Assembly (NCBI GenBank): GCA_028870355.1
Contig: JAGWPU010000061.1
Coordinates: 1-49,095 of the forward strand
DNA from: Gammaproteobacteria bacterium
Lineage (GTDB): Bacteria > Pseudomonadota > Gammaproteobacteria > Steroidobacterales > Steroidobacteraceae
DNA length: 49,095 nucleotides
Reading direction: 5' to 3'
Positions 23,433 to 49,095 of this stretch are shown here, piece after piece (position 1 is the first letter of the stretch; the number at the start of each line of letters is the position of its first letter). The notes below the pieces were generated by a model that was given only the letters and a program-made list of their open reading frames with translations, was not told the DNA's origin and ran no database searches. Both the position numbers and the translations under genes were made by a program.

Positions 23433-23439
23433 CGTCGGC

Positions 23440-25851: not shown

Positions 25852-25859
25852 TGATTCTC

Positions 25860-26867
25860 CTAGGGGTTGGATACGGCCAGGTGCAGCTTCGAGGGGGTCC
25901 GATCGGCCTGCGCGGCGCTCCCGAATCGCTGGATCAGCCAGGATCGGAACAGCGCGATCGCGGTGTCGCTCAGGCCCTCCGGATGCGTGATCAGGTAGTA
26001 GCCGTAGCCGTCGTCGACGTCGACATCGAACGGCTTCACCAGCCGTCCGTCGTTCACTTCCTCTTCGACCAGCATCGTGTCGACGAGCACGAGCCCGTCG
26101 CCGCTCAGCGCGTACTGGACCGCGAGCAGCGCGGTGTCGAACACCAGTCCGCGCTCGACGGTGGTCACCGGCAGGTTCGCGTGCCGCGCGAACTGGCGCC
26201 AGATGTGGTGCCGGGGCGTGTCCGAGAGGCGCACGTGGACGAGCTCGTTCGCATCGACGAACTCGCCGAGCGTCATGCCGGCGCTGCGCGCGGCGACGTT
26301 CGGATGGCACAGCAGGCTCAGGCGGACCGGCCACAGCAGGTCCCGGATCAGGTCGGTGACCATCGGCTTCGAGTACGTGACCGCGACGTCCACGTCGGTG
26401 AGCGGCGGGCCGACGCCGTAGGGGCTCACGAGGTCGATCTCGACCTCCGGTGCGGCCTGGCGGAAGTCGCGCAGGATCGGTACCGCGAGGCGCGCGGCGA
26501 AGCTCGGCGGCATCTGCACGCGCAGCGTGCGGCGCACCGGGGCGCCATCGTTGCGAATGTCGTCGAGCGCGTATTCCAGCCGGTCGAAAGACTTGGAGAC
26601 CGCGGCGAGCAGATGTTGCCCCGCCTGCGTGAGCGCGAGGGCGTGCGGTCGGCGCACGAACAGCTGCGCGCCGATCAGCTTCTCCAGCGCGATCACGTGA
26701 CGCGACAGTGCGCTCTGGGAGATCAGCAGCGCATTGGCCGCGGCGGTGAAGCTGTTGTGCTTCGCGACGCCTTCGAACGCGCGCAGCGCGTTGAGCGGCA
26801 ACCAGCGCCGATCGAAGTTCGGCTTCGCGGTCGTGGTGCCGGAGGCGCCGGCGGCGCGTCGGGTCAC
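25860..26867 (-). CDS. LysR-family transcriptional regulator inside the demethylation operon
   Basis: A 335-residue LTTR. The N-terminal winged helix (WLPLNALRAFEGVAKHNSFTAAANALLISQSALSRHVIALEKLIGAQLF) is preceded by about 23 less conserved residues. The effector domain covers about 110-310 (RTLRVQMPPSFAARLAVPILRDF, then VDVAVTYSK). The sequence resembles the GcvA-like branch. The GTG start at 26867 overlaps the TGA of the upstream carrier gene (GTGA), so it is translated with the operon and is not divergent as LysR regulators often are. It probably activates the transporter promoter near 28255 or the divergent GMC operon (inference). Confidence 0.88.
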   Translation of the reverse strand: MTRRAAGASGTTTAKPNFDRRWLPLNALRAFEGVAKHNSFTAAANALLISQSALSRHVIALEKLIGAQLFVRRPHALALTQAGQHLLAAVSKSFDRLEYALDDIRNDGAPVRRTLRVQMPPSFAARLAVPILRDFRQAAPEVEIDLVSPYGVGPPLTDVDVAVTYSKPMVTDLIRDLLWPVRLSLLCHPNVAARSAGMTLGEFVDANELVHVRLSDTPRHHIWRQFARHANLPVTTVERGLVFDTALLAVQYALSGDGLVLVDTMLVEEEVNDGRLVKPFDVDVDDGYGYYLITHPEGLSDTAIALFRSWLIQRFGSAAQADRTPSKLHLAVSNP

Positions 26868-32335: not shown

Positions 32336-35038
32336 ATGAATCCGAGTTCGAAACTCAACCTTGCGATCGCAGCGATCCTCGGCAGCGGAGCGATGGGCCT
32401 CGCCCACGCGGCCGCGGCGCCATCGAACGACAGCAACGATCAGCTGCAGACGATCACCGTGACCGCGCAGCGCCGTGCGCAGAACATGCAGGACGTGCCG
32501 ATCACGATCCAGGCGTTCACCGCGAAGACGCTCTCGCAGCTGCACATCGAGACCTTCGACGACTACGTGAAGTACCTGCCGAACGTGACCGCGCCGACCA
32601 ACGGCCCGGGCCAAGGCAACATCTTCATGCGGGGCCTGAGCGTCGGCGCCGCGGGTAGCCAGTCGAGCGGCACGATCGGCGGATTCCCGAACGTCGCGAT
32701 CTACCTCGACGACCAGTCGGGCCAGCTGCCCGCGCGCAACCTCGACGTGTATGCGGCCGACCTGCAGCGGATCGAGATCCTCGAGGGTCCGCAGGGCACG
32801 CTGTTCGGCGCCGGCGCCGAAGCGGGCGTCGTGCGCTACATCACCAACAAGCCGGTGCTCGACAAAACCGAGGGCAACGTGTCCGCGGGCTACGGCGTGA
32901 CCGCGCACGGCGACCCGAACACGAACCTGACCGCGGTGCTGAACCTGCCGCTGATCGACGGCAAGAGCGCGATGCGCGTGGTCGTCTACAACGACAGCCG
33001 CGGCGGCTACATCGACAACGTGCCGGGGACGTTCACCCGCCAGAACTCCGACCTCGGCATCGGCTATGCGAACTATCCGGCCGTGAACGGTCAGTGCCCG
33101 AACGGCAAGCCGCCGGGCAATTACTACGGCTCGCCCGTGTGCGTTCCGCCGAACGCGCCGGCGATCAACAATTACAACATCGCGAAGCGCGCGATCAATC
33201 CGGTGACCTACAAGGGCATCCGCGGCGAGTTCCTCTACAAGTTCAACGAGGACTGGAACCTGCTGGTCACGCAGATGTACCAGAACATGGATGCCGAGGG
33301 CGTGTTCTACCAGATGCCCTACTCGTCCGACGGCGTGAAACTGCAGCCGCTCCAGGTCACGCTGTTCAACAACGCGTACAACAAGGACAAGTTCGAGAAC
33401 ACCGCCTGGACCGTGAACGGCAAGTTCGGCCAGTTGAACGCGGTCTACACCGGGGCGTACCTCGTGCGCCACGTCGAACAGGTCGGCGACTACACGAACT
33501 ACGCCCGTGGCGTGTACGCCGACTACTATCAGTGCTATGGACCGGGTGGCGGCCCCTACTCCGGGCATCCGGACGCGAACCTCACGTCGACCTGCTACTC
33601 GCCGAGTTCGATCTGGCAGGAGACCGAGCGCAACGAACACCTGAGCCAGGAGTTCCGGCTGAGCACGCCGACCCACTGGCGGATGCGTGCGATCGGCGGC
33701 GTGTACTGGGAGGACAACAAGCTGTTCGACCAGACCGACTGGGGCTACAAGACGATTCCGGCGTGTACGTCGAACACGGCGCCGGGAACGCCGGGCAACA
33801 GCGGGTGTCTGTCGAACGTCGGCACCGCGCCGGGCGCGAGCGCCGAGAATCCCGGGGCGCAGCCGGACAACATCGCGTTCTTCGAAGATACGCGCCGCGA
33901 CGTCCGTCAGCTCGCCGAGTACCTGTCGGTCGACTACGACATCATCCCGCACACCTTGACCGTGACCTTGGGTACGCGGCATTTCCGCTTCGACAACTCG
34001 TTCAAGGGCAGCGTGACCGGCAGCTTCGGCTGCTTCGAGCAGGGCGCGCCTGCGGGTGGCTGCGTCGCCAGCGCGAACAACCTCGACGCGCGCAATCTGC
34101 AGGACACCGAGTCCGGCTGGCGCAGCCGCGCGAACCTGACCTGGCACGTCAACTCGGACGTGATGGTCTATTACACGTTCTCGCAGGGCTTCCGTCCGGG
34201 CGGGTTCAATCGCACCGGCGGCAACATGTACATCTACGGCCCGGACGGCGTGAAGCAGTTCGTGTTGCCGAGCACGTACAGTTCCGACAGCCTGAACAAC
34301 AACGAGGTGGGCTGGAAGACCCAGTGGTGGCACAACCGCGTGCAGTGGAACGGCGCGATCTATCAGGAGAACTGGAACAACGTGCAGGTCGGCTTCTTCG
34401 ATCCGGGTCAGACGGGTAACCTGACCTTCGGCACGAACGGCCAGAACTTCCGGGTCCGCGGCCTCGAGACCTCGATCATCGCGCGCGTGACGGATCACCT
34501 GACCGTACAGGGCGCGGCGTCGTGGAACCGCAGCGAGCAGACCAACTCGCCGGCGCTGACCGACGGCAATCCGGCGAGCGCGAACTACGGCAAGCCGATC
34601 ACCGAGTCCTGCAACAGCTCCGGCCTGAATTGCACCCCGATCTCGAACCTCTACGGCCCGATCGGCAGCCCGAGCGCGAACTCGCCGCCGATCCAGTTCA
34701 GTCTGCGCGCGCGCTACGACTGGATGCTGAACGATTACCGCTGGTTCGTGCAGGCGGGCGCGACCCACACCGGGCACTCGTTCACCCAGGCCGGCGCGAA
34801 TCCGTCGATCGCGACGGGTGGTGCGATCAACACGACCGTGCTGCGCTTCGAGAACCCGGCGTATTCGTCCTACGACGCCTCGTTCGGGGTCGCGAAGGGC
34901 GCGTGGAACGCGCAGGTCTATTGCCAGAACTGCAGCGATTCGAACGCGAGCGTGTTCACGAACTCCGGGCAGTTCGTGATCGCGCAGACGATCGTGCGAC
35001 CGCGGGTGATCGGCGTCAGCTTCGGTTACGACTTCTGA
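32336..35038 (+). CDS. TonB-dependent receptor, copy 1 of the paired module
   Basis: A 900-residue outer-membrane active transporter. A signal peptide (ends GLAHAAAA, about residue 27) precedes the TonB box LQTITVTAQRRAQNMQDVPITIQ. The plug domain contains IEILEGPQGTLFGAGAEAGVVRYITNKP. The barrel ends VRPRVIGVSFGYDF. It resembles the receptor at 37223 through the plug and much of the barrel, including FRPGGFNR and IYQENWNNVQ, so the two are duplicates. Extra extracellular-loop cysteines (for example CYSPSS, CTSNT, CLSN) distinguish it. A sulfotransferase gene follows after 114 bp and a hairpin. The ligand is unknown. Confidence 0.93.
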   Translation: MNPSSKLNLAIAAILGSGAMGLAHAAAAPSNDSNDQLQTITVTAQRRAQNMQDVPITIQAFTAKTLSQLHIETFDDYVKYLPNVTAPTNGPGQGNIFMRGLSVGAAGSQSSGTIGGFPNVAIYLDDQSGQLPARNLDVYAADLQRIEILEGPQGTLFGAGAEAGVVRYITNKPVLDKTEGNVSAGYGVTAHGDPNTNLTAVLNLPLIDGKSAMRVVVYNDSRGGYIDNVPGTFTRQNSDLGIGYANYPAVNGQCPNGKPPGNYYGSPVCVPPNAPAINNYNIAKRAINPVTYKGIRGEFLYKFNEDWNLLVTQMYQNMDAEGVFYQMPYSSDGVKLQPLQVTLFNNAYNKDKFENTAWTVNGKFGQLNAVYTGAYLVRHVEQVGDYTNYARGVYADYYQCYGPGGGPYSGHPDANLTSTCYSPSSIWQETERNEHLSQEFRLSTPTHWRMRAIGGVYWEDNKLFDQTDWGYKTIPACTSNTAPGTPGNSGCLSNVGTAPGASAENPGAQPDNIAFFEDTRRDVRQLAEYLSVDYDIIPHTLTVTLGTRHFRFDNSFKGSVTGSFGCFEQGAPAGGCVASANNLDARNLQDTESGWRSRANLTWHVNSDVMVYYTFSQGFRPGGFNRTGGNMYIYGPDGVKQFVLPSTYSSDSLNNNEVGWKTQWWHNRVQWNGAIYQENWNNVQVGFFDPGQTGNLTFGTNGQNFRVRGLETSIIARVTDHLTVQGAASWNRSEQTNSPALTDGNPASANYGKPITESCNSSGLNCTPISNLYGPIGSPSANSPPIQFSLRARYDWMLNDYRWFVQAGATHTGHSFTQAGANPSIATGGAINTTVLRFENPAYSSYDASFGVAKGAWNAQVYCQNCSDSNASVFTNSGQFVIAQTIVRPRVIGVSFGYDF

Positions 35039-35082
35039 CGCCGGAGGCCGATCGCGTTTGACCGTCGATCCGAAGAGAACCG

Positions 35083-35116
35083 CAGGAGCCGCGCCCCGAC
35101 CGGGGCGCGGCTCCTG
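35083..35116 (+). terminator. Strong hairpin between receptor 1 and sulfotransferase 1
   Basis: A 15-bp perfect stem (CAGGAGCCGCGCCCC and its complement) with a GACC loop, followed by TCTTTCC. The T-tract is weak but the stem is very stable, so it probably attenuates read-through and gives different receptor and sulfotransferase levels. Confidence 0.65.
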
Positions 35117-35152
35117 TCTTTCCGAGGATCCAGCCAGTCGGGAGGGGCCGCC

Positions 35153-37159
35153 ATGAGCTCACCGCTCGCCGTTCCGCCCTCCCCCCCATCGCCCGGACCC
35201 ATCGAAGCCGAGGTCGCGCGCATCCGCTCGCTCGTCGAGCGACGGGCGTTCCCCGACGCGCGCGACGCGGCGCTCGCACTCTCGGCGCAGGTGCCCGAGA
35301 ACCGCGACGTCCTGTACCTGCTCGCGGTCAGCGAGCGCCACCTGAACCTCATCGACGAGGCGCTCGCGACGCTCGATCGGCTCGAGCGGACACACCCGGA
35401 CTTCAGCCGGCTCTACCAGGAGCGGGGTCACTGTCACATGATGCGGCGCGATGCGCCGCGCGCGATCGAGGCGTTCCTGATCGCCGTGAATCGCAACCCG
35501 GCGCTGCCCGCGAGCTGGCGGGCGCTGGAGGGCCTGTATCGCCTGGTCGGCGACGAGGCCAACGCGCGGACCGCGGCGAGCCACGTCGCGACGCTCGCCC
35601 GCTTGCCGCCGGAGATCGTGACCGCGACCAGCCTGTTCCACGATCGGGAACTTGCGCTCGCGGAACCGATCGTCCGGCGCTATCTCCTGCAACACGGCAA
35701 CCACGTCGAGGCGATGCGCCTGCTCGCGCGCATCGGGATCGAGCGCGAGGCGTTCGAGGACGCCGAGATCCTGCTCGACGCGGTGCTCGATCTCGCGCCG
35801 GACTATCACGCGGCGCGCTTCGATTTCGCGCGTACGCTCCTGCACCGTCACAAGCATCGCCGGGCGATCGAGGAACTCGAGCGCCTGCTCGCGGTCGAGC
35901 CCGAGAACCGCAATTACCGAACCCTGATCGCGACGACCTACGTCGGGATCGGCGATCACGAGCGCGCGCTCGCGCTCTACCGGTCGCTCCGCGCGGACGC
36001 GCCGCAGGCGGCCGCGGTGCAACTGTCGATCGCGCATTGCCTGAAGACGCTCGGACGCCGCGACGAGGCGATCGCCGCCTACCGGGAAGCGATCGCGATC
36101 CGGCCGAATTTCGGCGACGCGTACTGGAGCCTCGCGAACCTGAAGACATTCCGCTTCGCCGACGAGGACGTCGCGGTCATGCGCGAGGTCGAGGCGGCCG
36201 CCGATACCCCGACGGTCGATCGATACCACCTGTGCTTCGCGCTCGGCAAGGGGTTCGCCGACCGCGGCGACTGGGCGGAGTCGTTCCGCTACTACGAACG
36301 CGGCAATGCGCTGAAGCGCGCCGAGATCGACTACCGCCCGGAGGCGGTCGAGGAACAGGCGCGGCTGCAGATGCGGGTGTGCACGCGGGAGTTCTTCGCC
36401 GCGCGGCAAGGGGTCGGCTGCCCGGACCCCGCGCCGATCTTCATCGTCGGCCTCCCCCGCTCCGGATCGACGCTATTGGAACAGATCCTCGCGTCCCACT
36501 CGGCGGTCGAGGGCACGATGGAGCTCGCGGACGTCCCCCGGCTGGTCAACGACCTGCAGGGCCGATCCGCCCGCAGCGAACTGCCGCGCTATCCGCAGGG
36601 ACTCCCCGAGATCGATGTCGAGGAGATCCGACGCTTCGGCGAACGCTACCTCGCCGACACGCGCGCGTACCGCAGCGGGAAGCCGCGCTTCGTCGACAAG
36701 ATGCCGAACAATTTCCGGCACATCGGCCTGATCCATCTGATGCTGCCGAACGCGAAGATCATCGATGCGCGGCGCGATCCGATGGCCTGTGGCTTCAGCA
36801 ATTTCGAGCAGCTGTTCGCATCGGGCCAGGAGTTCACCTATTCGCTCGAGGAGATCGGCCGGTACTACCGCAGCTACGTCGAGCTGATGGATCACTGGAA
36901 CCGCGTGCTGCCGGGGCGGATCCTGCTGATGCGCCACGAGGAGGTCGTCGACGACCTCGAGGGGAGCGTGCGGCGCCTGCTCGCGTTCTGCGATCTTGAG
37001 TTCGAGCCCGGCTGCCTCGAGTTCCACAAGACGCAGCGCAGCGTGCGTACCGCGAGCTCCGAGCAGGTACGCCAGCCGATCTTCACGCACGGCGTCGACC
37101 GATGGCGCCACTACGAACCCTGGTTGGGCCCGCTGCGCGCGGCGCTCGACGGACGATGA
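35153..37159 (+). CDS. TPR-repeat sulfotransferase, copy 1
   Basis: A 668-residue cytoplasmic protein without signal peptide. Residues 1-400 are helical tetratricopeptide repeats (for example DEALATLDRLERTHPDFSRLYQERGHC and DEAIAAYREAIAIRPNFGDAYWSLANL). The C-terminal 240 residues are a Sulfotransfer_3-type domain. The PAPS 5'-phosphosulfate loop is FIVGLPRSGSTLLEQILASH (G433 onward). The 3'-phosphate motif region is IDARRDPMACGFSNFEQLF. The family transfers sulfate from PAPS to hydroxyls or amines; TPRs suggest a peptide or protein acceptor or partner. It is paired with receptor 1. The acceptor is unknown. Confidence 0.9.
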   Translation: MSSPLAVPPSPPSPGPIEAEVARIRSLVERRAFPDARDAALALSAQVPENRDVLYLLAVSERHLNLIDEALATLDRLERTHPDFSRLYQERGHCHMMRRDAPRAIEAFLIAVNRNPALPASWRALEGLYRLVGDEANARTAASHVATLARLPPEIVTATSLFHDRELALAEPIVRRYLLQHGNHVEAMRLLARIGIEREAFEDAEILLDAVLDLAPDYHAARFDFARTLLHRHKHRRAIEELERLLAVEPENRNYRTLIATTYVGIGDHERALALYRSLRADAPQAAAVQLSIAHCLKTLGRRDEAIAAYREAIAIRPNFGDAYWSLANLKTFRFADEDVAVMREVEAAADTPTVDRYHLCFALGKGFADRGDWAESFRYYERGNALKRAEIDYRPEAVEEQARLQMRVCTREFFAARQGVGCPDPAPIFIVGLPRSGSTLLEQILASHSAVEGTMELADVPRLVNDLQGRSARSELPRYPQGLPEIDVEEIRRFGERYLADTRAYRSGKPRFVDKMPNNFRHIGLIHLMLPNAKIIDARRDPMACGFSNFEQLFASGQEFTYSLEEIGRYYRSYVELMDHWNRVLPGRILLMRHEEVVDDLEGSVRRLLAFCDLEFEPGCLEFHKTQRSVRTASSEQVRQPIFTHGVDRWRHYEPWLGPLRAALDGR

Positions 37160-37222: not shown

Positions 37223-39766
37223 ATGCAATCCAGTGCAAAACTCGCGTGCGCGGTCGCCGCGATACTCGGCGGCGCGACCGGTGGACTCGCGCTCGCCGCC
37301 ACGGCGAAATCGAAGGACTCGAACTCCTCGGATCAGTTGCAGACGATCACGGTGACCGCACAGCGGCGCGTGCAGAACATGCAGGACGTGCCGATCACGA
37401 TCCAGGCGGTCACCTCGAGCACGCTGACCCAGCTCAACGCAACCACCTTCGACCAGGTGCTCAAGTTCCTGCCGAACGTGACGATCGCGGGCACCGGCCC
37501 CGGCCAGAACAACATCTACATGCGCGGCCTGTCGACCAGCAACGCCGGGATCCAGGGTGCGGGCGTCGTCGGCAGCTTCCCTAACGTCGCGATCTACCTC
37601 GACGATCAGTCGGGCCAGAGTCCGGGACGCAACCTCGACATCTATGCGGCGGACCTGCAGCGCATCGAGATCCTCGAAGGCCCGCAGGGGACGCTGTTCG
37701 GCGCCGGTGCGCAGGCGGGCGTGGTCCGGTACATCACCAACAAGCCGGTGCTCGATCGCACCGAAGGCGACGTGAACGCCGGTTACGCGGTCACCGCCCA
37801 TGGCGATCCGAGCACGAACCTCGACGCGACGCTCAACGTGCCGATCATCCGTGACAAGTTCGCGGTGCGCGCGGTGATCTTCAATGCGACCCAGGGCGGC
37901 TACATCAACAACATCCCCGCGACGTTCACGCGGGCGCCGACCGACCGGGGCATCGCGTACTACTTCCACGGCGTCGTTCCGCCCGGCCCCTCGCTGAGCA
38001 ACGACAATCTGGCCGCGCGCGCGATCAACCCGGTCACCTACAAGGGCGGCCGCGTCGAGGCGAAGTACAAGTTCAATCCCGACTGGGACCTGCTGCTCAG
38101 CCAGATGTACCAGAACATGGATGCCGAAGGCGTTTTCTGGCAGGAGCAGTACGACGGCCTCGGCCAGCCGCTGCCGCCGCTGTCGGTGGAGCTCTACAAC
38201 CCCTCGTACAACAAGGATCGGTTCGAGAACACCGCGTGGACCCTGCACGGACGCATCGACAAGCTGCGGCTGGTGTACACCGGCGGCTACCTCGACCGCC
38301 ACGTCGACGAGCAACAGGACTACACGAACTACTCGCGCGGCTCGTACGCCGAGTACTACCAGTGCAACATCCCGGGGTCCTCGGTCAACGGGGTCCCGAC
38401 CCAGCCGAGCTGTTACTCCCCGAGCGGGTTCTGGACCGATCGCCAGCTGATGACCCACCAGAGCCACGAACTGCGGCTCAGCACGCCGGGCGACTGGCGG
38501 CTGCGCGGTCTCGCCGGCGTGTTCTACGAAAACTACACGGTGCACGAGCAGACCGACTGGCACTACGGGTCGAACCCGAACTTCGTGCCGATCGCGCCGC
38601 CGCCCGGCGTGACCACGAACAATCCGAACGTGCGCCAGCCGGGGGACATGTTCTTCGACGACATCACGCGCGGCTACAAACAAAAAGCGGCGTACATGTC
38701 CGTCGATTACGACGTGCTGCCGAAGAAGGTCACGGTCACGCTCGGGACGCGCTACTACAGCATCGAGAACTTCGAAAAGGGCTCGAACGTCGGCAGTTAC
38801 GGCTGCAACCCGGGGGGCATCTACAGCGGCTCGACCGTCGCATCCCCCTGCACCGTGCCGGTCAGCAATGGCAACAACCTGGACGCGAAGAACCTCGACA
38901 AGACCTACACGGGCTTCAAGAGCCGCGCGAACCTCTCCTGGCACGTGACGCCGGACAAGATGGTCTACGCGACCTGGTCGCAGGGCTTCCGTCCCGGCGG
39001 ATTCAATCGTGCGCAGTCGATCATCAAGCCGACCTCGCCGATCTACGGGCTGTTCACCCCGCCGCTCGCGTATGCACCCGATACCCTGACGAACGTCGAG
39101 GCCGGCTGGAAGACCGAGTGGTTCGATCACCGGTTCATGTGGAACGGCGCGATCTACCAGGAGAACTGGAACAACACCCAGATCGAGATCTTCGATCCGG
39201 GCGTGACGGGGAACCTCACGTTCACGACGAACGGGCCGAACTACCGCGTGCGCGGCGTCGAGACCTCGTTCATCGCGCGCGTGACCCACGCGTTGACCGT
39301 GAGCGGCGCGGCGTCCTGGAACAGCAGCCAGGTCGTGAAGACGCTGTCGCTCGTGAATCCGCATACCGGCCAGCCGATCAACATCGCGAACCCGTTCGGC
39401 GCGCTCGGGACGCCGCTGTCGCAGTCGCCGCCGTTCGAGGCGAACATTCGCGCCCGTTATGAGTTCCACCTCGGCGACTACCACGCGTTCTGGCAGGTCG
39501 CGGCGACGCATCAGGCGCACTCCTACGCGACGACCGACCACCTGACGAAGACGCTGCAGGGACTCACCGTGGCGTTCGACGACCCGGGCTTCTCGACCTA
39601 CGACGCGTCGATCGGGATCGGCAAGGGGGCGTGGAACGCGCAGCTGTACGGACGCAACCTCACCGACGTGCGGGCGATCCTGTTCTCGAGCTACGCGGAG
39701 TACGTGAAGATGGACACCGTGAACCGGCCACGCACGATCGGGGTCAGCTTCTCGTACAAGTTCTGA
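37223..39766 (+). CDS. TonB-dependent receptor, copy 2 of the paired module
   Basis: An 847-residue paralogue of the receptor at 32336. Signal peptide to about residue 27 (ends ALAATAK), TonB box LQTITVTAQRRVQNMQDVPITIQ, plug with IEILEGPQGTLFGAGAQAGVVRYITNKP, barrel ending RPRTIGVSFSYKF. It is about 50 residues shorter, mainly through smaller extracellular loops, so the two may select different ligands. The ribosome site GGGGG lies 9 nt before the ATG. It is followed by two tandem hairpins, the second an intrinsic terminator. Confidence 0.93.
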   Translation: MQSSAKLACAVAAILGGATGGLALAATAKSKDSNSSDQLQTITVTAQRRVQNMQDVPITIQAVTSSTLTQLNATTFDQVLKFLPNVTIAGTGPGQNNIYMRGLSTSNAGIQGAGVVGSFPNVAIYLDDQSGQSPGRNLDIYAADLQRIEILEGPQGTLFGAGAQAGVVRYITNKPVLDRTEGDVNAGYAVTAHGDPSTNLDATLNVPIIRDKFAVRAVIFNATQGGYINNIPATFTRAPTDRGIAYYFHGVVPPGPSLSNDNLAARAINPVTYKGGRVEAKYKFNPDWDLLLSQMYQNMDAEGVFWQEQYDGLGQPLPPLSVELYNPSYNKDRFENTAWTLHGRIDKLRLVYTGGYLDRHVDEQQDYTNYSRGSYAEYYQCNIPGSSVNGVPTQPSCYSPSGFWTDRQLMTHQSHELRLSTPGDWRLRGLAGVFYENYTVHEQTDWHYGSNPNFVPIAPPPGVTTNNPNVRQPGDMFFDDITRGYKQKAAYMSVDYDVLPKKVTVTLGTRYYSIENFEKGSNVGSYGCNPGGIYSGSTVASPCTVPVSNGNNLDAKNLDKTYTGFKSRANLSWHVTPDKMVYATWSQGFRPGGFNRAQSIIKPTSPIYGLFTPPLAYAPDTLTNVEAGWKTEWFDHRFMWNGAIYQENWNNTQIEIFDPGVTGNLTFTTNGPNYRVRGVETSFIARVTHALTVSGAASWNSSQVVKTLSLVNPHTGQPINIANPFGALGTPLSQSPPFEANIRARYEFHLGDYHAFWQVAATHQAHSYATTDHLTKTLQGLTVAFDDPGFSTYDASIGIGKGAWNAQLYGRNLTDVRAILFSSYAEYVKMDTVNRPRTIGVSFSYKF

Positions 39767-39775
39767 CGAAGTGTC

Positions 39776-39800
39776 CGGCGGGCGGCTTCGCCGCCCGCCG
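39776..39800. terminator. Perfect 11-bp hairpin just after receptor 2
   Basis: CGGCGGGCGGC (39776-39786), loop TTC, then its exact complement (39790-39800), starting 9 bp after the stop. No T-tract follows. It precedes a true terminator by 23 bp, so it may protect the mRNA 3' end. Confidence 0.5.
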
Positions 39801-39823
39801 ACTTCCGGTAGAATCGCCCGGCG

Positions 39824-39852
39824 GGGCGGGCCGATCGCCCGCCCTTTTTTTT
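39824..39852 (+). terminator. Intrinsic terminator of receptor 2
   Basis: GGGCGGG, loop CCGATCG, CCCGCCC, then eight T (39845-39852). This is the clearest Rho-independent terminator in the window. It lies 24 bp before the next sulfotransferase start, so that gene is transcribed by read-through or from a promoter within or just before the hairpin (TAGAAT at 39809-39814 is a possible -10). Confidence 0.85.
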
Positions 39853-39876
39853 GTCGAGCGCCCCGGTACCAGCGAA

Positions 39877-41886
39877 ATGGCATCCACGCCGTCAGATCTT
39901 CCCGAGAGCCGCGTCGACGCCGAATCGCGGCGCGTCCGCGAACTCCTCGAGCGGCGCGACTTCGGGGCCGCGCTCGAGGCCGCGCGCGCGCTACTCGAGA
40001 GCGCGCCGGATCACCGCGACGCGCTCTATCTGGTCGCGGTTTCGCAGCGCTACTGCGGCCGCGTCGCCGACGCGCTGCGCACGCTCGCGCGCCTGGAGGA
40101 GAAATTCCCGGATTTCGGGCGACTGTACCAGGAGCGTGGGCACTGCTACCGCGTGGTCGGCGAACCGGCTGCGGCGCTCGCGGCCTATGGACGGGCGGTG
40201 GCCGCGAACGGCTCGCTCGCGGCGAGCTGGCGCGCGATCGCGGAACTCTCCCGCGCCGCGGGGCTCGAGGCGGACGCGCGCGCCGCGGAGACGGAAGTCG
40301 CACGGCTCGCGCGCCTGCCGGCCGCAGTCGTCGCCGCGTCCGGCATGATCTCCGAGGGCGATCTCTCCGCCGCGGAGCGCGTGCTGCGGCGCTTCCTGCA
40401 GGCGAACGTCACCCACGTCGATGCGATGCGCCTGCTCGCGCAGATCGGGGTCAAGCACGAGGTGCTCGACGACGCGGAATTCCTGCTGGAGAGCGCGCTC
40501 GCGTTCGAGCCGGACAATCTCGCGGTGCGCTACGATTACGTCTCGGTGCTCGCGCTGCGGCACAAGCACGCGAAGGCCCTCGCGCAAGCCGAGAAACTGC
40601 TCGCGGTCGACCCCGCGAACCGCGCGTTCCGGATCGTGCACGCGAACGCCTGCGTCGGCCTCGGTCGCCAGCAGGACGCGCTCGACACGTTCCGCGCGCT
40701 GCTCGACGACTCGACCCAGAAGGCGGACCTGTACCTGTCGATCGGTCATGCGGAGAAGACCCTCGGGCGCCAGGCCGAGGCGATCCGCGCGTACCGGCTC
40801 GCGGCCGATGCGCGTCCGGGGTTCGGCGACGCGTACTGGAGTCTCGCGAACCTGAAGACCTACCGGTTCGAGGATCGGGAGATCGAGCAGATGCGCCGGC
40901 ACGAGGCGGCCGAAGCGACGCAGCCCGCCGATCGCTATCACCTGTGCTTCGCCCTCGGGAAGGCGCTCGAGGATCGGGGCGAGTACGAGGAATCGTTCCG
41001 CTGCTACGAACGTGGCAACGCACTGAAGAAGCGCGAGTGCCGGTATTCCGCGGATGCGCTCGAACGGACGCTGCGGCAGCAGTTCGAGGTCTGCAGCGCG
41101 CCGTTCCTGCGGGAGCGCGCCGGCCTCGGCGATCCGGATCCCGCTCCGATCTTCGTCGTCGGCCTGCCCCGCGCGGGCTCGACCCTGATCGAACAGATCC
41201 TCGCGTCGCACTCGCAGGTCGAGGGGACGGCCGAGCTTGCCGAGATCCCGCAGATCGTGCAGCGGCTTGCCGGGCGTGAGACCAAGGACGGACCGCCACG
41301 CTACCCGGTGGTGCTCCGCGAACTCGGCCCCGGCGACTGGCGCGCGCTCGGCGAGCGCTACCTCGCCGAGACCCGGGTGTACCGGACCGGCGCGCCGTTC
41401 TTCATCGACAAGATGCCGAACAATTTCCGGCATCTCGGCCTGATCTCGCTGATCCTGCCGAACGCGAAGATCATCGACGCGCGGCGGGACCCGATGGCGT
41501 GCTGCTTCAGCAACTTCAAGCAGCTGTTCGCCGCGGGACAGGAGTTCACCTACGGCCTCGAGGACATCGCCCGATACTATCGGATCTACGTCGAGCTGAT
41601 GGATCACTGGGATGCGGTGCTGCCGGGACGGATCCTGCGGGTGCGTCACGAGGACCTGGTCGAGGACCTCGAGGGCGAGGTGCGCCGCCTGCTCGCGTTC
41701 TGTGGACTCGAGTTCGAACCGGCTTGCCTTGAATTTCACCGCCAGGCGCGCAGCGTCCGCACCGCGAGCTCGGAGCAGGTCCGCCGGCCGATCAACCGCG
41801 AAGGGATCGACCAGTGGCGACATTACGAACCGTGGCTCGGCCCGCTCGCGGCCGCGCTCGGCGACTTGGCGCCGGGACGCGCCTAG
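39877..41886 (+). CDS. TPR-repeat sulfotransferase, copy 2
   Basis: A 669-residue paralogue of the protein at 35153 with the same layout: TPR array to about residue 395, then the sulfotransferase domain with FVVGLPRAGSTLIEQILASH (from G429) and IDARRDPMACCFSNFKQLF. Conserved blocks such as PFFIDKMPNNFRHLGLI and SVRTASSEQVRRPI occur in both copies. The first ATG matching the copy 1 N-terminus is 39877; upstream frame belongs to the terminator region. It ends 14 bp before the lyase-like gene, so ST2, the lyase homologue and the MFS gene probably form one operon. Confidence 0.9.
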   Translation: MASTPSDLPESRVDAESRRVRELLERRDFGAALEAARALLESAPDHRDALYLVAVSQRYCGRVADALRTLARLEEKFPDFGRLYQERGHCYRVVGEPAAALAAYGRAVAANGSLAASWRAIAELSRAAGLEADARAAETEVARLARLPAAVVAASGMISEGDLSAAERVLRRFLQANVTHVDAMRLLAQIGVKHEVLDDAEFLLESALAFEPDNLAVRYDYVSVLALRHKHAKALAQAEKLLAVDPANRAFRIVHANACVGLGRQQDALDTFRALLDDSTQKADLYLSIGHAEKTLGRQAEAIRAYRLAADARPGFGDAYWSLANLKTYRFEDREIEQMRRHEAAEATQPADRYHLCFALGKALEDRGEYEESFRCYERGNALKKRECRYSADALERTLRQQFEVCSAPFLRERAGLGDPDPAPIFVVGLPRAGSTLIEQILASHSQVEGTAELAEIPQIVQRLAGRETKDGPPRYPVVLRELGPGDWRALGERYLAETRVYRTGAPFFIDKMPNNFRHLGLISLILPNAKIIDARRDPMACCFSNFKQLFAAGQEFTYGLEDIARYYRIYVELMDHWDAVLPGRILRVRHEDLVEDLEGEVRRLLAFCGLEFEPACLEFHRQARSVRTASSEQVRRPINREGIDQWRHYEPWLGPLAAALGDLAPGRA

Positions 41887-41900
41887 CTATCGGAGACTCC

Positions 41901-43685
41901 ATGGCGACAATCCACGAACGTCCGGCGCGGCGCGGTCGCACGATCGCGCTGTCCATCGCGCTCGCCGCCCTCGCCACCGCCGCGGCCCGGGCCGACGCGT
42001 TCCGCCCGATCGTGCCGACGATGACGGATCGAACCGTCGTGCTCGACGGCCATCACCTGACGATCGGCGAGGTCGTCGACGTCGCCCGCGACGGGGCGCG
42101 GGTCGCGCTGAGCCCGCAGGCCCGGCAACGATCCGCGGACGCCTATGGGCTGCTCCTCGAGGCGGCCCGCGAGGGCGTGCCGGTCGACGGATTCGATCGC
42201 GGGACCGACGCCAATCGGCGCATCCGCTGGTTCGCGGGCGATCCAACCGCGTCCGGGAACCAGAAGCGCATCGCGGCGCGCGAGCTCGCGCTGTTCCAGC
42301 GCGGTGCGTTCGTCGGGGCTGGACCGCCGATCGCCGACGAGGCGGTGGTGCGCGCGATGCTCGTCGTGCGTGCGAACACGATGACCGCCGAGGCGGCGAG
42401 TCCCGCGCTGATCCAGCAGCTGATCGACCTGCTGAACGACCGGATCACGCCGGTCGTCCGGTCGCGGGGCACGGTCGGCGAAGGCGATCGCGGCCAGTTC
42501 ATGAACGTCGCGGCGACGATGGTCGGCGCCGGCGACGCTTATTATCGCGGCGAACGCATGCCGGCATCCGAGGCGCTGCGGCGCGCGGGCCTGCAGCCAC
42601 TCGCGCCGTTCGGTGCGGACGATCGCGTACTCGAAGGCACGAACGCGTATTTCACCGGCCTCGCGGCGCTGGTGACCTACGATGCGCGCGATGCGCTCTC
42701 CTGGGCGGATCTCACCGACGCGATCGACCTCGACGGCATGAACGCCGATGTCGCGCCGCTCGCGCTGCCGGCCCGGCAAAGCCGGCCTTTCCAGTGGTTG
42801 AACTGGGATGCCGCGCGGGTGCTCGACATGCTCCGCGGCAGCTATCTGTTCGCGCTCGACGGACAGCGCACCGCGCCGGATCCGCAGAGCCTGCGTGCCT
42901 CGAACGTCCGCCAGGGCGCCGCCTGGCAGGCATGGACCACGATGCGCGACGATCTGCTGATCGCGATGAACTCCTCGGATCTCGACTTCACGGTGCGCGT
43001 CGGCAGCTCGCCCGGGGATTCCTGGGAGCTCGGCACGCCGCAGCTGCGCCGGTACTACGTCGTCGGCGGTCCCTTGAGCCACGGTGAGCACGGCTACGTG
43101 TTGCCGAGCGCGAATGCGGACCCCTACCCGCTCGCGAACGACGTCGAGGCGTTCACGATCGCGCTCGCGAACCTGGACGAGGCGGTCGCGCAGCGCATCC
43201 TGCGCTTCACGAGCACCCGCTTCACGGTGATCCCGCCGATGCCGGATCTGCCGGGACGCGCCGACAGTTACGGACTCGCGCGCGCGAGCGACGATGTGGT
43301 CGCGGATCTGGTGCAGGACGCCGTGGCCCAGGCCGTCCCGGTGCCGCCCGCCGGCTACGGACTCGGCAAGGGCGTCCGTGACCTGCAGGCACAGACGCGG
43401 CTCAAGATCGCACGCGCCCGGCGTGCGGTCGACGACAGCGTCGACCTGCTCGCCGAAGATCTCCTGACGGGCACCTACTGGCTCGACCTGCGCAAGCTCC
43501 AGGACGCGCATCGAGCGTTCGGCCCGGCGCCGACCGCCGCCTGGGCCGCGTTCCGGCGGGTCGTGCCGTTCAAGCCCGACGCAGCGCTCACGCTGTCGCG
43601 CCCCGTCGCGACGGTCGCCGCGCAATTCATCCGTTCGCACCCGATCGACCGATTCTACGGAGCCACCACGGGGAAGGCGCGTTGA
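41901..43685 (+). CDS. Exported histidine/phenylalanine ammonia-lyase-fold protein lacking the MIO triad
   Basis: A 594-residue homologue of aromatic amino acid ammonia-lyases with a signal peptide (residues 1-32, AARADA). The alignment to HAL is clear around VVRANTMTAEA...LIQQLIDLLNDRITPVVRSRGTVG and continues through YYRGERMPASEALRRAGLQPL. In place of GSVGASGDLAPL it has GTVGEGDRGQF (190-200), so the Ala-Ser-Gly that cyclises to the MIO electrophile is gone. The active-site Tyr of YGINTGFG is Asp in VDGFDRGTDAN. The Tyr of DPYSLRC is Gln in PDPQSLRAS. It is therefore unlikely to be an ammonia-lyase; a periplasmic binding or non-MIO role is inferred. GGAG lies 7 nt before the ATG. It is coupled to the next gene. 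Confidence 0.8.
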   Translation: MATIHERPARRGRTIALSIALAALATAAARADAFRPIVPTMTDRTVVLDGHHLTIGEVVDVARDGARVALSPQARQRSADAYGLLLEAAREGVPVDGFDRGTDANRRIRWFAGDPTASGNQKRIAARELALFQRGAFVGAGPPIADEAVVRAMLVVRANTMTAEAASPALIQQLIDLLNDRITPVVRSRGTVGEGDRGQFMNVAATMVGAGDAYYRGERMPASEALRRAGLQPLAPFGADDRVLEGTNAYFTGLAALVTYDARDALSWADLTDAIDLDGMNADVAPLALPARQSRPFQWLNWDAARVLDMLRGSYLFALDGQRTAPDPQSLRASNVRQGAAWQAWTTMRDDLLIAMNSSDLDFTVRVGSSPGDSWELGTPQLRRYYVVGGPLSHGEHGYVLPSANADPYPLANDVEAFTIALANLDEAVAQRILRFTSTRFTVIPPMPDLPGRADSYGLARASDDVVADLVQDAVAQAVPVPPAGYGLGKGVRDLQAQTRLKIARARRAVDDSVDLLAEDLLTGTYWLDLRKLQDAHRAFGPAPTAAWAAFRRVVPFKPDAALTLSRPVATVAAQFIRSHPIDRFYGATTGKAR

Positions 43686-45010
43686 GCGCTCACGGCGACC
43701 CGCCGTCGCTGCGGATCCGCTGGCGGATCTTCGCGTTCCTGTTCGCGTTCGGCTGGCTCGCGTACATGCAGCAGAAGAGCATCACGGTCGCGGCGGCGCG
43801 CATCATGCCGGACCTGTCGCTCAGCCAGCTGCAGATCGGTTGGATCGAGCAGGCGTTCGTCGTCGGCTATGCCCTGTTCCAGATGCCGGGCGGGCTGTTC
43901 GGCCAGCGGGTCGGCGCGCGGCGCACGTTCGTGATCATCGGCGTGCTCGCGTGCGTCGCGATGCTCGGGACCGCCGCGGGACCTGCGTGGCTCGCCGGCC
44001 GGACCCTGTTCGTGGAGCTGCTCGGGATGCAGCTGCTGCTCGGCGCGGCGCAGGGCGCGATCTTCCCGGTATCCGCCGGCGTGTTCGAGGCCTGGTTCCC
44101 CGCCTCGCGGTGGGCGTTCGTGCAGGGGTTGCAGACGATGGGCCTGCAGCTCGGCGCCGCGGCGACGCCGCCGCTGGTCGCGACGCTGATGCACGCCTTC
44201 GGCTGGCAGCGCGCACTCGTGTGGACGACGTTGCCCGCGTTCGCGGTGATCGCGCTGTGGGCGTGGTACGGCCGCGGCAGTCCCCGCGAGCATCCGGCGG
44301 TCACGCCCGCCGAGCTCGCGGAGATCGGCACCGCGGACCCGGCGCCGACGGCTTCGCCGCCACGCGCGGGCCGCGTGCTACGGCTGCTTGCGGATCGCAA
44401 CGTGCTGTTGCTCGCGATCTCCTACCTCTGCATGAATTACACGTTCTACCTGCTCGCGAACTGGGTATTCCTGTACCTCGTGCAGGAACGCCACTTCTCG
44501 GTGCTCGAGGGCGGCTGGCTCGCGAGCGCCCCACCCCTCGCGGCGGCGATCGGCGCGGGCGTCGGCGGAATGCTCACCGGTCTCGCCTGCCGTCGTTTCG
44601 GCGAGCGACGGGGCTATCGCCTCGTGCCGCTGATCTCGCTGCCGGCCGCGGGACTGCTGCTGCTCACCGCCGTCGATTCGCCGAACGCCTGGGTCGCCGT
44701 CGCGGTGCTCTCGCTGTGCTACGGACTCGTCGAGCTCAACGAGGGTGCGTATTGGGGCGCCGCGATGTCGGTCGGCCGAGGCGACACGATGGCGGTCAGC
44801 GGCTTCATGAACACCGGCGGGAACCTCGGCGGGATCATCGGGATTCCGATCGTCGCCTACCTCTCGGGACGCGGCGCCTGGCACGCGGCGTTTCTGGTCG
44901 GAACCGGGTGCGCGATCGCCAGTGCGGTCGCGTGGCTCGCGATCGACGCGGACGGCTCGCGCGGCGCCGCGCCGGCGCCGCGCGAGCGACCCTCGTCCCC
45001 GCCGCGCTAG
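43682..45010 (+). CDS. MFS transporter coupled to the lyase-fold gene
   Basis: A 442-residue inner-membrane carrier with twelve predicted helices. SITVAAARIMPDLSLSQLQIGWIEQAFVVGYALFQMPGGLFGQRVGARR covers helices 1-2 and motif A in the style of the anion:cation symporter group. NEGAYWGAAMSVGRGDTMAVSGFMNTGGNLGGIIGIP is the second-half counterpart. The start is TTG 43682, overlapping the TGA of the preceding gene, which implies translational coupling. Its stop overlaps the stop of the convergent hydrolase (shared CTAG at 45007-45010). It probably imports an organic anion made or bound in the periplasm by the upstream product (inference). Confidence 0.87.
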   Translation: MSAHGDPPSLRIRWRIFAFLFAFGWLAYMQQKSITVAAARIMPDLSLSQLQIGWIEQAFVVGYALFQMPGGLFGQRVGARRTFVIIGVLACVAMLGTAAGPAWLAGRTLFVELLGMQLLLGAAQGAIFPVSAGVFEAWFPASRWAFVQGLQTMGLQLGAAATPPLVATLMHAFGWQRALVWTTLPAFAVIALWAWYGRGSPREHPAVTPAELAEIGTADPAPTASPPRAGRVLRLLADRNVLLLAISYLCMNYTFYLLANWVFLYLVQERHFSVLEGGWLASAPPLAAAIGAGVGGMLTGLACRRFGERRGYRLVPLISLPAAGLLLLTAVDSPNAWVAVAVLSLCYGLVELNEGAYWGAAMSVGRGDTMAVSGFMNTGGNLGGIIGIPIVAYLSGRGAWHAAFLVGTGCAIASAVAWLAIDADGSRGAAPAPRERPSSPPR

Positions 45011-46349: not shown

Positions 46350-46895
46350 CTACAGGTCCGCGAGCGTCTCGCGAATCCAGTCCAGCAAGTGCGCGCAGTA
46401 GGCGCGCTCCACGAGCAATAGGTATTCGTCCGCCTGCCAGCCGGCGACCGTGACCACGACGTCGGCGAACCGGCCGGTTCGGGCCTCGCCGACGCGCGGG
46501 ATCGAGCGTGACGACCCCAGGCGCTGCAGCACCGCGAGGGCACGAGCTCCGGCGAGATGGATGCCGGCGATCCCGCCGCTCTGATCCACGAGCGAGATCT
46601 CCTCGTTCGGCCCGAGACCTCGACGCAGCGCGTCGATCGGCGCCGGTGTGCCGGCGAGCACCCAGGTTTCGCTCGGCGATCTCCACAGCAGCGCGAACGG
46701 ATCGGCGCCGCCCGGCAAGCGCTGCCGCTCCAGGCGGCCGGCGGCCGGCAGAGCGCAGCCGAGCACGGGCGCGACCCTGGCCTCGCCGCGCATCGGATCG
46801 AAATACCGCAGGCTCGCGACGCGAATCGCGCGATCGCGTTCCGCCGTCACGCCGCCGCCGGTCCAGCGCTCGAGGGTGTCGTGAGTGTCAGCCAT
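46350..46895 (-). CDS. soxG: Sarcosine oxidase gamma subunit-like protein
   Basis: A 181-residue small subunit with a GcvT-like (YgfZ-type) fold. Hallmarks are WRSPSETWVLAGTP in the middle, VDQSGGIAGIHLAGARALAVLQRL and a C-terminal ADEYLLLVERAYCAHLLDWI. Heterotetrameric sarcosine oxidase uses this subunit for assembly beside alpha, beta and delta. Its ATG overlaps the alpha-subunit stop by 8 bp, which fits the usual soxBDAG order; B and D would lie beyond the right edge. The identity is moderate, as the subunit is poorly conserved. Confidence 0.8.
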   Translation of the reverse strand: MADTHDTLERWTGGGVTAERDRAIRVASLRYFDPMRGEARVAPVLGCALPAAGRLERQRLPGGADPFALLWRSPSETWVLAGTPAPIDALRRGLGPNEEISLVDQSGGIAGIHLAGARALAVLQRLGSSRSIPRVGEARTGRFADVVVTVAGWQADEYLLLVERAYCAHLLDWIRETLADL

Positions 46896-49095
46896 GCAGT
46901 CGCTTCCCTTCGGGGTCGATGAACGGCGTTGCGACGACGATCGCGTCGATCCGCTGCCCGAGGTGGTGCACGCCGACGGTCTCGCCGAGGCGCTGCGCGC
47001 CGCGTGCGAGCATCGCGAGCGCGACCGGGGCGCGCAGCGTCGGGCTCCAGTGGCTCGAGGTCACGTGACCCTCGGTCGCCGTCGGCGGCGGCGCCTGCGC
47101 GATTTGCGCGCCGACCGGCAAGCGCGTCCGGCCGTCCACGGGCTTCAGGCCGACGAGCCGCAGTCGGTCCGGATCGAGTGCCGCCGGCCGCAGGAGCGAT
47201 CGCCGGCCCACGAAATTCGCGTGCTTGCGCTCGAGCCCGCGCGCGAAGCCGACGTCGCCCGGCAGCGTCGTGCCGTCGGTGTCGACGCCGACGTGCAGGT
47301 AACCCTTCTCGGTCCGCAGGATCTCGAGCGCCTCGATGCCGTACGGGGCACCACCGAGCGGCGCGGCCGCGCCCCAGACGCGCTCGATCAGGTCGTCGGC
47401 CCGCTCGACGGGCACGTTGATCTCGTAGGACAGCTCGCCGGTGAAGCTCGCGCGCAGCACGCGCACCGGCGAGCCGTCGTATTCGCCGTCCGCGATCGTC
47501 ATGTGCTTCATCGATTCCGGCGAGAATCGGCCGTCGAGACCGATCGCGGCGAGCGTCGTCCAGGCTTTCGGGCCCGACACGGTCATGTTTCCCCAGCGCG
47601 AGGTCACCGGGGTGACCAGCACGTCGAACTGCGGGTATTCGCACTGGAGCCATTCCTCGAACGCGGCCGCGGTCCGCTCGACGCCGGCGCTCGTGGTGTT
47701 GACCCAGAAATGGGCCGGCCCCAGCCGTGCAACCACGCCGTCGTCGACGATCACGCCATTCTCGTTGAGCAACAATCCGTATCGGGCCTGACCGGGTGCG
47801 AGCGAGGACATCGTGCCGACGTACATGAGGTCGAGAAACTGCGCGGCGTCGGGTCCCCAGACCTCGATCTTGCCGAGCGGAGACCCGTCGAACACCCCGA
47901 CCACGCTGCGCACGGTCTCGGCTTCGCGCTGCGCCGCGCTCTCCAGCGACTCGTCCGCGCGGGGATACGCGGCCGGTCGGCTCCAGTTGCCGAACAGTTC
48001 GAACAGCGCCCCGTGGCCGGCATGCCAGGCCGCGGCCGGCAGGTGCTTCACCGGACGATAGCGATCGGCGACGCGGCGGCCGACGAGTGCACCGAAGCTC
48101 ACCGGGGCGAACGGCGGCCGGAACGTGGTCGTGCCGACCTCGGCGGGTCCGCGCTGCGTCGCTTCGCCCATCAGCACGAGGGCGTTCACGTTGCTGGTCT
48201 TGCCCTGGTCGGTCGCCATGCCGGTCGTCGTGTAGCGCTTCAGATGCTCGACCGAGCGATAGTTCTCGGTCGCCGCGAGCGCGACATCGGCGACGGTCAC
48301 GTCGTTCTGAAGATCGAGGAAGATCTTGCCGCGCACGCCGGGGATCCGGCTCGACGCGAGCGAGCGCCCGGCCCCGCCGATCGGCGGCGGCGGCACCGTG
48401 AATCCGAGCGCGAGCGATCGTCCGACCTCGGCGGCGTGCTCGAGCGCCGCGCTGCGCGAGAACACCCCGGCGCAGGCGCCGACGCTGTAGAGGCCCGGCG
48501 CCGGTCCGTCCGGTACGAACATCGCCGCCTCCTCGAGCCAGCGCAGCCGTCCCTTCGCCTGGGAGTGCAGGTGCACCGCCGGCGCGAATCCGCCGGCGCT
48601 CAGGATCAGATCGCACTCGAGGCGCTCGGCTCGCCCGCCCGGCTCATTGGCGTCGACCACGAGGCAGCCGCGCACCCCGCGTCCGCCGACGACCCGTCCG
48701 ATCCCGTGGTGCGCGAGGCACCGGACTCCTTCCGCCTGGGCACCGATCGCACCCGCCGGTCGCCGATCGAGCACCGCGACGATCTCGATCCCCGCCGCTC
48801 GCAGCGACCGGGCGACCGCGTACGCGGAATCCCCGTTCGCCGCGATCACCGCGCGGCGGCCACAGGCGGTCGCATAGCCATGCGCGTATTTCTCGGCGGC
48901 ACCGGCGAGCATCACGCCGGGACGATCATTCCCGGGGAAGAGCATCGGTCGCTCGAACGCCCCCTGCGCGGAGACGATCGAGCGTGCGCGGATCTTCCAC
49001 AGACGCTCGCGCAGCGCACCGTGCGTGCCCGGCGCGGCTGCCGCGAGCGATTGCACCGCGCACAGCAGTCCGTGGTCGTAGACGCCGAACGCGAG
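46888..49095 (-). CDS. soxA: Sarcosine oxidase alpha subunit-like protein, C-terminal part (cut by window edge)
   Basis: About 735 C-terminal residues; the N-terminus lies right of the window. The visible order is the end of the FAD/NAD dinucleotide domain (RARSIVSAQGAFERPMLFPGNDRPGVMLAGAAEKY), a linker with CDLILSAGGFAPAVHL and an Fe-S/[2Fe-2S]-type-free connector. Then comes FLDLQNDVTVADVALAATENYRSVEHLKRYTTTGMATDQGKTSNVNAL and a complete GcvT folate domain (SFTGELSYEINVP, APYGIEALEILRTEKGY). This is typical of the 900-1000 residue alpha subunit that oxidises sarcosine or related N-methyl amines to glycine and methylene-THF. It is the second GcvT-type demethylase in the window, in an operon separate from the one at 21-28 kb. 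Confidence 0.93.
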   Translation of the reverse strand, partial: LAFGVYDHGLLCAVQSLAAAAPGTHGALRERLWKIRARSIVSAQGAFERPMLFPGNDRPGVMLAGAAEKYAHGYATACGRRAVIAANGDSAYAVARSLRAAGIEIVAVLDRRPAGAIGAQAEGVRCLAHHGIGRVVGGRGVRGCLVVDANEPGGRAERLECDLILSAGGFAPAVHLHSQAKGRLRWLEEAAMFVPDGPAPGLYSVGACAGVFSRSAALEHAAEVGRSLALGFTVPPPPIGGAGRSLASSRIPGVRGKIFLDLQNDVTVADVALAATENYRSVEHLKRYTTTGMATDQGKTSNVNALVLMGEATQRGPAEVGTTTFRPPFAPVSFGALVGRRVADRYRPVKHLPAAAWHAGHGALFELFGNWSRPAAYPRADESLESAAQREAETVRSVVGVFDGSPLGKIEVWGPDAAQFLDLMYVGTMSSLAPGQARYGLLLNENGVIVDDGVVARLGPAHFWVNTTSAGVERTAAAFEEWLQCEYPQFDVLVTPVTSRWGNMTVSGPKAWTTLAAIGLDGRFSPESMKHMTIADGEYDGSPVRVLRASFTGELSYEINVPVERADDLIERVWGAAAPLGGAPYGIEALEILRTEKGYLHVGVDTDGTTLPGDVGFARGLERKHANFVGRRSLLRPAALDPDRLRLVGLKPVDGRTRLPVGAQIAQAPPPTATEGHVTSSHWSPTLRAPVALAMLARGAQRLGETVGVHHLGQRIDAIVVATPFIDPEGKRLHG

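Follow-up and report, generated by a model that had tools for sequence, protein, structure and literature searches.

The window, as we call the whole 49,095-nucleotide stretch that was analysed, carries on its forward strand a full-length open frame (41901-43685) without internal stops that encodes a protein of 594 aa. This gene, the features within it and its neighbours are listed below.

22281-23432, reverse strand: Rieske oxygenase, a possible N-demethylation gene, 15-20 kb from the lyase
23443-26334, reverse strand: DAO-FAO_M-GCV_T oxidoreductase, a possible N-demethylation gene, 15-20 kb from the lyase
32336-35035, forward strand: second TonB-dependent receptor (gene call, domain search)
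35153-37159, forward strand: second TPR-containing sulfotransferase (Pfam)
37223-39766, forward strand: TonB-dependent receptor (Pfam)
39877-41886, forward strand: TPR-containing sulfotransferase just upstream of the lyase (first ATG at 39877, frame open from 39631; Pfam)
41901-43685, forward strand: 594-aa protein of the Lyase_aromatic family (PF00221), MIO-free, signal peptide predicted (ORF, Pfam, alignment)
41901-41996, forward strand: predicted Sec signal peptide region, about aa 1-32 (by eye; hydrophobic-stretch scan)
42186-42188, forward strand: Asp96 codon, at the HAL Tyr53 position (alignment; Tyr in 36/36 other family rows)
42468-42500, forward strand: GTVGEGDRGQF, short segment at the MIO position, aa 190-200 (in frame; alignment)
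43008-43100, forward strand: insert of ~30 residues relative to ergothionase and HAL, about aa 370-400 (alignment, profile)
43377-43379, forward strand: Arg493 codon, at a position that is Glu in 30/38 family rows, ergothionase and HAL (alignment)
43682-45010, forward strand: MFS transporter with a TTG start and a 4-base overlap with the lyase stop
46891-49095, reverse strand: protein of the sarcosine oxidase alpha type (GCV_T, SO_alpha_A3), truncated at the end of the window

The order TonB-dependent receptor, sulfotransferase, lyase, MFS transporter recurs in the nearest relatives (loci L039-L045) where contigs are long enough. Neighbouring pairs of receptor and TPR-sulfotransferase occur twice in the window (32336-37159 and 37223-41886), and sulfotransferase genes were found in 16 loci, the window included. 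Gene calls for the neighbours came from a simple GC-position script and may be incomplete or wrong in places, and most of the NCBIfam names attached to them score below their cut-offs.

The first-pass annotation had recognised a HAL/PAL fold in the protein, and profile and structure comparisons bore this out. Pfam Lyase_aromatic matches at 229 bits (E 1.2e-67, cut-off 27.3) over a near-complete profile; the NCBIfam histidine ammonia-lyase model reaches 113 bits against a cut-off of 539. The structure prediction and fold comparison that had been proposed were carried out with an AlphaFold2 model (mean pLDDT 85.3, pTM 0.87; residues 487-495, with Arg493, below 50). Foldseek placed the ergothionase of Treponema denticola (6s7j) at rank 1 (E 7.2e-26, target TM-score 0.83), then TAL and HAL, with PAL also matched. 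The same ergothionase was the best PDB match by phmmer (E 2.7e-29) and by profile search (E 5.4e-60), the next profile match being a probable HAL at 7.2e-35.

At the MIO position the window lyase reads GTVGE-GDRGQF, aligned to GSVGASGDLAPL of HutH from the same genome (contig C2). The segment is one residue short and no Ala/Thr/Cys-Ser-Gly triad was found at the aligned position, just as had been described. Two active-site tyrosines had also been read as Asp and Gln, and the alignment agrees: Asp96 and Gln329 (codon 42885-42887, forward strand) stand opposite Tyr53 and Tyr280 of the HAL active site. Set against MIO-dependent HAL, PAL and TAL, the protein has the fold and is without the triad and both active-site Tyr. 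HutH shares with it the fold and counterparts of Arg332 and Asp196; it differs from the window lyase in having the triad, both Tyr and the Glu, in showing no signal peptide and in adjoining a urocanase gene. Since the genome thus has its own triad-bearing HutH, an ordinary HutH was ruled out.

The first-pass annotation knew of no characterised family with these features. This claim did not hold: T. denticola ergothionase lacks MIO, according to passages of PMC13405746, has the same GEGD segment and is the best PDB match. Ergothionase (ergothioneine trimethylamine-lyase, PDB 6s7j/6s7q), which splits ergothioneine into trimethylamine and thiourocanate, has the same PF00221 fold, reads RSSIGEGDITTL with the segment one residue short as in the window, and has counterparts of window residues R100, E194, D196, N281 and R332. 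Identity between the two proteins is about 26% over the aligned pieces. Unlike the window lyase, ergothionase carries Tyr and Glu at positions 96 and 493 as well as an IQK stretch, lacks the ~30-residue insert and shows no signal peptide; the window lyase has Arg493, and no Lys aligns to the IQK stretch. To our knowledge, ergothionase is the only characterised relative. Maurer et al. (2019) reportedly identified its catalytic residues as the Glu of an IEDH stretch and the Lys of the IQK stretch, and work on this enzyme is said to conclude that a tertiary amine leaving group needs no MIO activation, unlike ammonia release.

Export, which had also been claimed for this protein, is predicted here too: the N-terminus, MATIHERPARRGRTIALSIALAALATAAARADA, was judged by eye to have the build of a Sec signal peptide, and the lyase is predicted to reach the periplasm. 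A search for exported PF00221 proteins without Ala-Ser-Gly had been suggested; of the 41 rows of the family described below, 38, the window among them, pass a simple hydrophobic-stretch scan. On the HAL side 2 of 17 rows passed weakly, and the genome's own HutH failed. Relatives' start codons were set by nearness to the window start, the equivalent place being used for the 7 of 41 family rows without Met there. The Rhizobium member of the family is without a signal peptide, and the Paracoccus one has one. Signal-peptide-like N-termini were also seen in the MIO-free lyases L074, L075 and L084, homologues from ergothioneine-utilisation (ert) clusters, which shows that the export signal is not unique.

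The family was collected by searching 200 genomes of the same taxonomic family (Steroidobacteraceae), which gave a group of long matches to the window lyase at 46-89% identity. The 37 relatives are 43-89% identical to it and all keep the GExD segment; the group is set apart from L074 and L075 (33% and 30%) and from the ammonia-lyases (26-35% over shorter stretches). From the search, 37 stretches were fetched, and 38 full or near-full members, the window included, were aligned after a fragment (L061:6892-8448) had been dropped; the cut-short L066 row was left out of alignment A1 and of the 36-row count. Family-bearing genomes numbered 29, G173, with fragments only, being left out. A contig scan of genomes with the single window protein yielded six close relatives.

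Beyond Steroidobacteraceae three further members were found, on pAMI4 of Paracoccus aminophilus JCM 7686, on pRlX3 of Rhizobium ruizarguesonis (plasmid matches being the best 20 of 683 records) and in G609, from the same phylum. Profile searches at E <= 1e-60 matched 3 of 369 class genomes and 2 of 398 phylum genomes (both counts include the window's own genome), as well as 4 of 199 genomes of G609's family; the only further window-family member they returned was that of G609. The other lyases from these searches (L077, L078, L082-L084) are more distant than the window family, and L078, which has internal stops, was not put in the tree. Outside its own taxonomic family the window family looks rare among class and phylum genomes at E <= 1e-60.

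E194 and D196 of the short segment are present in 38/38 rows, with G (30), A (7) or D (1) between them. The annotation had foreseen that a frameshift at 42470-42500 could undo its reading; with these residues conserved throughout, the segment is genuine. R100, R106, R332 and D494 are, like E194 and D196, invariant in aligned family rows. Position 329 is Glu in 34 of 38 rows, Leu in ergothionase and Gln in the window alone; position 493 is Glu in 30 of 38. Within the insert, P371, D373, E376, H397 and G398 are invariant in the 37-row alignment A1 and partly different in the Paracoccus, Rhizobium and G609 rows, and L074 and L075 have a shorter, different insert at the same place. The window lyase itself falls in the family clade and has the GExD segment, R100 and R106, but lacks Tyr96 and Glu493.

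In a maximum-likelihood tree of 67 rows (midpoint root; the program warned of long branches), 18 HAL-side rows separated from 49 rows of the GExD/GQAD/GMAD kind with support 100/100. The window family (41 rows) stands on a long stem, also at 100/100, and ergothionase with seven relatives makes up the other MIO-free group (84/88). The window family is thus a distinct clade beside the ergothionase group. Two HAL-side rows, L094 and L050, are likewise without the triad, through a longer deletion; MIO-free and MIO-bearing proteins are therefore not completely separated by the tree.

The window lyase belongs to a branch of four (with L039, L040 and L041, which are 84-89% identical to it). Position 96 is Asp or Glu in all four members and Tyr in 36/36 other family rows, ergothionase and HAL; position 493 is Arg or His in all four. 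Trp406 and Ser402, kept in 36/36 others, are changed to Ala and Pro. Among 168 well-conserved positions 19 are changed in all four members, compared with 0 to 38 in eight other family rows or small groups; the count of 19 is therefore unexceptional, but the places of change are exceptional. Pairwise dN/dS is 0.13-0.19 within the branch versus 0.17-0.25 among L042-L045. The branch values indicate that the window gene is kept by purifying selection, and a pseudogene was ruled out on the same grounds.

ErtD and urocanase-family genes were sought at E <= 1e-100. In the window's own genome (G000; estimated 92% complete, 162 contigs) and its three closest relatives no match to ErtD was found; ErtD was detected in 6 of the 34 genomes searched and was absent from 26 of the 29 window-family genomes. 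The urocanase family gave a single match in G000, beside HutH, scoring 678 bits against a thiourocanate hydratase cut-off of 930. With ErtD missing from 26/29 genomes and the G000 urocanase match adjoining HutH, the window family is not tied to ergothioneine, and ergothionase proper was rejected as the identity of the window gene. Ergothioneine-utilisation clusters with an exported ergothionase candidate were seen at L074, L075 and L105. The L074 cluster has ErtD (727 bits, cut-off 600) and thiohydantoin desulfurase (543, cut-off 440); ErtD scores 705 bits at L075 and 743 at L105, where thiourocanate hydratase reaches 1017 (cut-off 930). At L074, where the gene call is short, and at L075 the urocanase-type genes score below that cut-off. 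The ert-cluster lyases (L074 and L075 from the same taxonomic family, L084 from another family of the phylum) resemble the window lyase in a one-residue-short segment (GEAD) and a signal-peptide-like N-terminus. They differ from it in keeping the Tyr, the Glu and a QK stretch, in adjoining ErtD and urocanase-type genes, and in being placed by the tree with ergothionase, outside the window family.

Some family loci have MTTB-like methyltransferases, DMGDH/sarcosine-oxidase-like fusions, FolD, aldehyde dehydrogenases and ProP- or ProVW-like transporters. An FAO_M (DMGDH-like) gene lies within 5, 10 and 20 kb at at least 3, at least 8 and at least 18 of 39 family loci, against 0.47, 0.81 and 1.36 expected, and MTTB at 2, 6 and 8 of 39 against 0.43, 0.72 and 1.19 (P 0.07 at 5 kb), in a test that counts genomes as independent, several of them sharing synteny with the gene about 17 kb away. 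Within 20 kb no FAO_M was among the matches listed at 21 of 39 loci, and no MTTB at 31 of 39. Methylamine genes are therefore commoner near the family than expected, yet not at most loci; those of the window itself lie at 22281-26334, 15-20 kb off and outside the lyase operon, with a further gene of this kind at 46891-49095. MTTB genes are many in 28 of the 29 genomes, with 8 matches (some cut by contig ends) in the 2.9 Mb genome of the window and up to 10 in relatives. A phosphonate-type binding protein is encoded directly beside the lyase in L046, L047 and L050-L053. Near the lyase there is also a taurine-dioxygenase-like gene at L046:4254-5171, L047:6955-7785 and L048:12064-12894 (449 bits for L047, cut-off 313; the others by similarity to L047). 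The Rhizobium member lies immediately downstream of a gene whose annotation reads acetate--CoA ligase family and of an ABC importer operon; this company points to a catabolic enzyme with an acid product.

Other lyases without the triad were found alongside the family. A second type reads GS[VI]GYL[ST]HMAH where HAL has GSVGASGDLAPLAH (L107:7186-8685, L108:5637-7136, L109:8066-9628, L110:4530-6044 and L113-L119), and all 11 such genes found in the 29 genomes are without the triad. Those genomes gave 31 other lyase matches; 19 were fetched and every one has A[SC]G. At L107 and L108 the YL-type lyase occurs together with an MTTB gene and a DMGDH-like gene, and at L107 an enoyl-CoA hydratase and a gene of the ADP-forming CoA-ligase type are present as well; a regular linkage with MTTB was weakened as a candidate, MTTB adjoining in only 2 of the 11 loci. 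L109:11006-12499 encodes an MIO-free variant, TSNGV-ADLTPL, near the YL-type lyase, and an MFS gene related to that of the window lies in between. GQAD lyases with signal-peptide-like N-termini were seen in L087 (S. meliloti pSymA, annotated hutH) and L104 (G1073), with genes for an ABC-type binding protein and a cupin of the DMSP-lyase family close by. The types of triad loss are GExD/GQAD/GMAD/GVAD, one residue short, and GS[VI]GYL[ST]HM, three residues short.

The notion of a repurposed lyase scaffold, with which the first-pass annotation had ended, is supported by these results, and, taken together, the members of the window family look like enzymes. We propose, with a probability of about 0.5, that in the periplasm they split a tertiary amine, trimethylamine or another, off a betaine and do so without MIO. 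We would place even odds on the window gene encoding a periplasmic protein of a new MIO-free lyase subfamily with kinship to ergothionase. The betaine would enter through the TonB-dependent receptor, and acid/base catalysis by the lyase would expel trimethylammonium or some other amine that leaves readily. A tertiary amine leaving group would need no activation, and MIO would for this reason be dispensable. The unsaturated acid might then be imported by the overlapping MFS transporter, and the released amine demethylated by DMGDH/sarcosine-oxidase-like and MTTB-like enzymes coded elsewhere. The product proposed being a carboxylic acid, the acetate--CoA ligase family and importer neighbours in Rhizobium fit. 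The sulfotransferases of the operon are not accounted for by a betaine lyase. In the window branch the presumed acid/base residues would have been swapped (Tyr96 to Asp/Glu, Glu493 to Arg/His, with Trp406 to Ala), most likely a change of substrate under continued selection. A wider proposal is more tentative, and we rather doubt that it holds in full: an unnamed class of periplasmic betaine lyases would combine TonB-dependent uptake, MIO-free trimethylamine elimination and import of the unsaturated acid, the triad having been lost more than once in those lyases of the superfamily that release a methylated amine, with a further exchange of Tyr and Glu in the window branch.

Since the shared Tyr, the Glu and the Lys-containing stretch of ergothionase are all absent from it, the window protein may not catalyse at all. 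The four-member branch could have lost catalysis and now serve in the periplasm for binding or sensing, with ligand binding retained, which we hold to be possible though unlikely. Loss of Tyr96 and Glu493 and the change, common to the four, of 19 of the 168 conserved positions, Trp406 and Ser402 among them, speak for such a role, and purifying selection fits it too. However, E194, D196, R100, R106, R332 and D494 are still invariant, the replacements are non-random (every member has an acidic residue at 96 and a basic one at 493), and the same operon surrounds the sisters L042-L045, in which Tyr and Glu are intact. As judged from the sequences, the branch would have either a changed specificity or a non-catalytic binding role.

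It is less probable again, and we consider it improbable, that the family acts on another class of substrate and takes off some other group, such as sulfate, sulfite, dimethyl sulfide or, by a novel mechanism, ammonia. The operon's sulfotransferases would suit this, as would the taurine-dioxygenase-like genes (L046-L048), the phosphonate-type binding proteins (L046, L047, L050-L053) and the DMSP-lyase-family cupin gene near the MIO-free, signal-peptide-bearing S. meliloti relative; the excess of DMGDH-like and MTTB genes near the family argues against it, as does the release of trimethylamine by ergothionase described in passages of PMC13405746. We think it very improbable that the window lyase is simply an exported ergothionase, even though this is its closest solved structure: at 26% identity over aligned pieces the site residues differ, ErtD (E <= 1e-100) is absent from G000 and 26 of 29 family-bearing genomes, the urocanase match lies beside HutH, and the ert clusters of relatives carry a different exported lyase (L074, L075, L084). 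The assembly is fragmented, in 162 contigs, but the chance of a frameshift, an assembly error or a decaying gene is negligible, given a full-length frame, dN/dS of 0.13-0.19 and the same short segment in 37 of 37 relatives; conservation of the segment in these other assemblies ruled out a frameshift or sequencing error.

Listings and abstract openings of the literature on MIO-less, exported or betaine lyases held no description of the window family, and for ert genes no paper was found; passages of PMC3903478 concern a laboratory mutant. Two plasmid-borne family members, among the matches listed, are annotated as aromatic amino acid ammonia-lyases, an annotation that is doubtful because these proteins cannot form MIO. 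If elimination from a betaine is indeed what the family does, it would be a new enzymatic source of trimethylamine outside the cytoplasm. It would also offer a natural series for testing when a lyase needs MIO: single genomes encode both triad-bearing and triad-free proteins, and a single genus includes relatives that have the catalytic Tyr and others that lack it.
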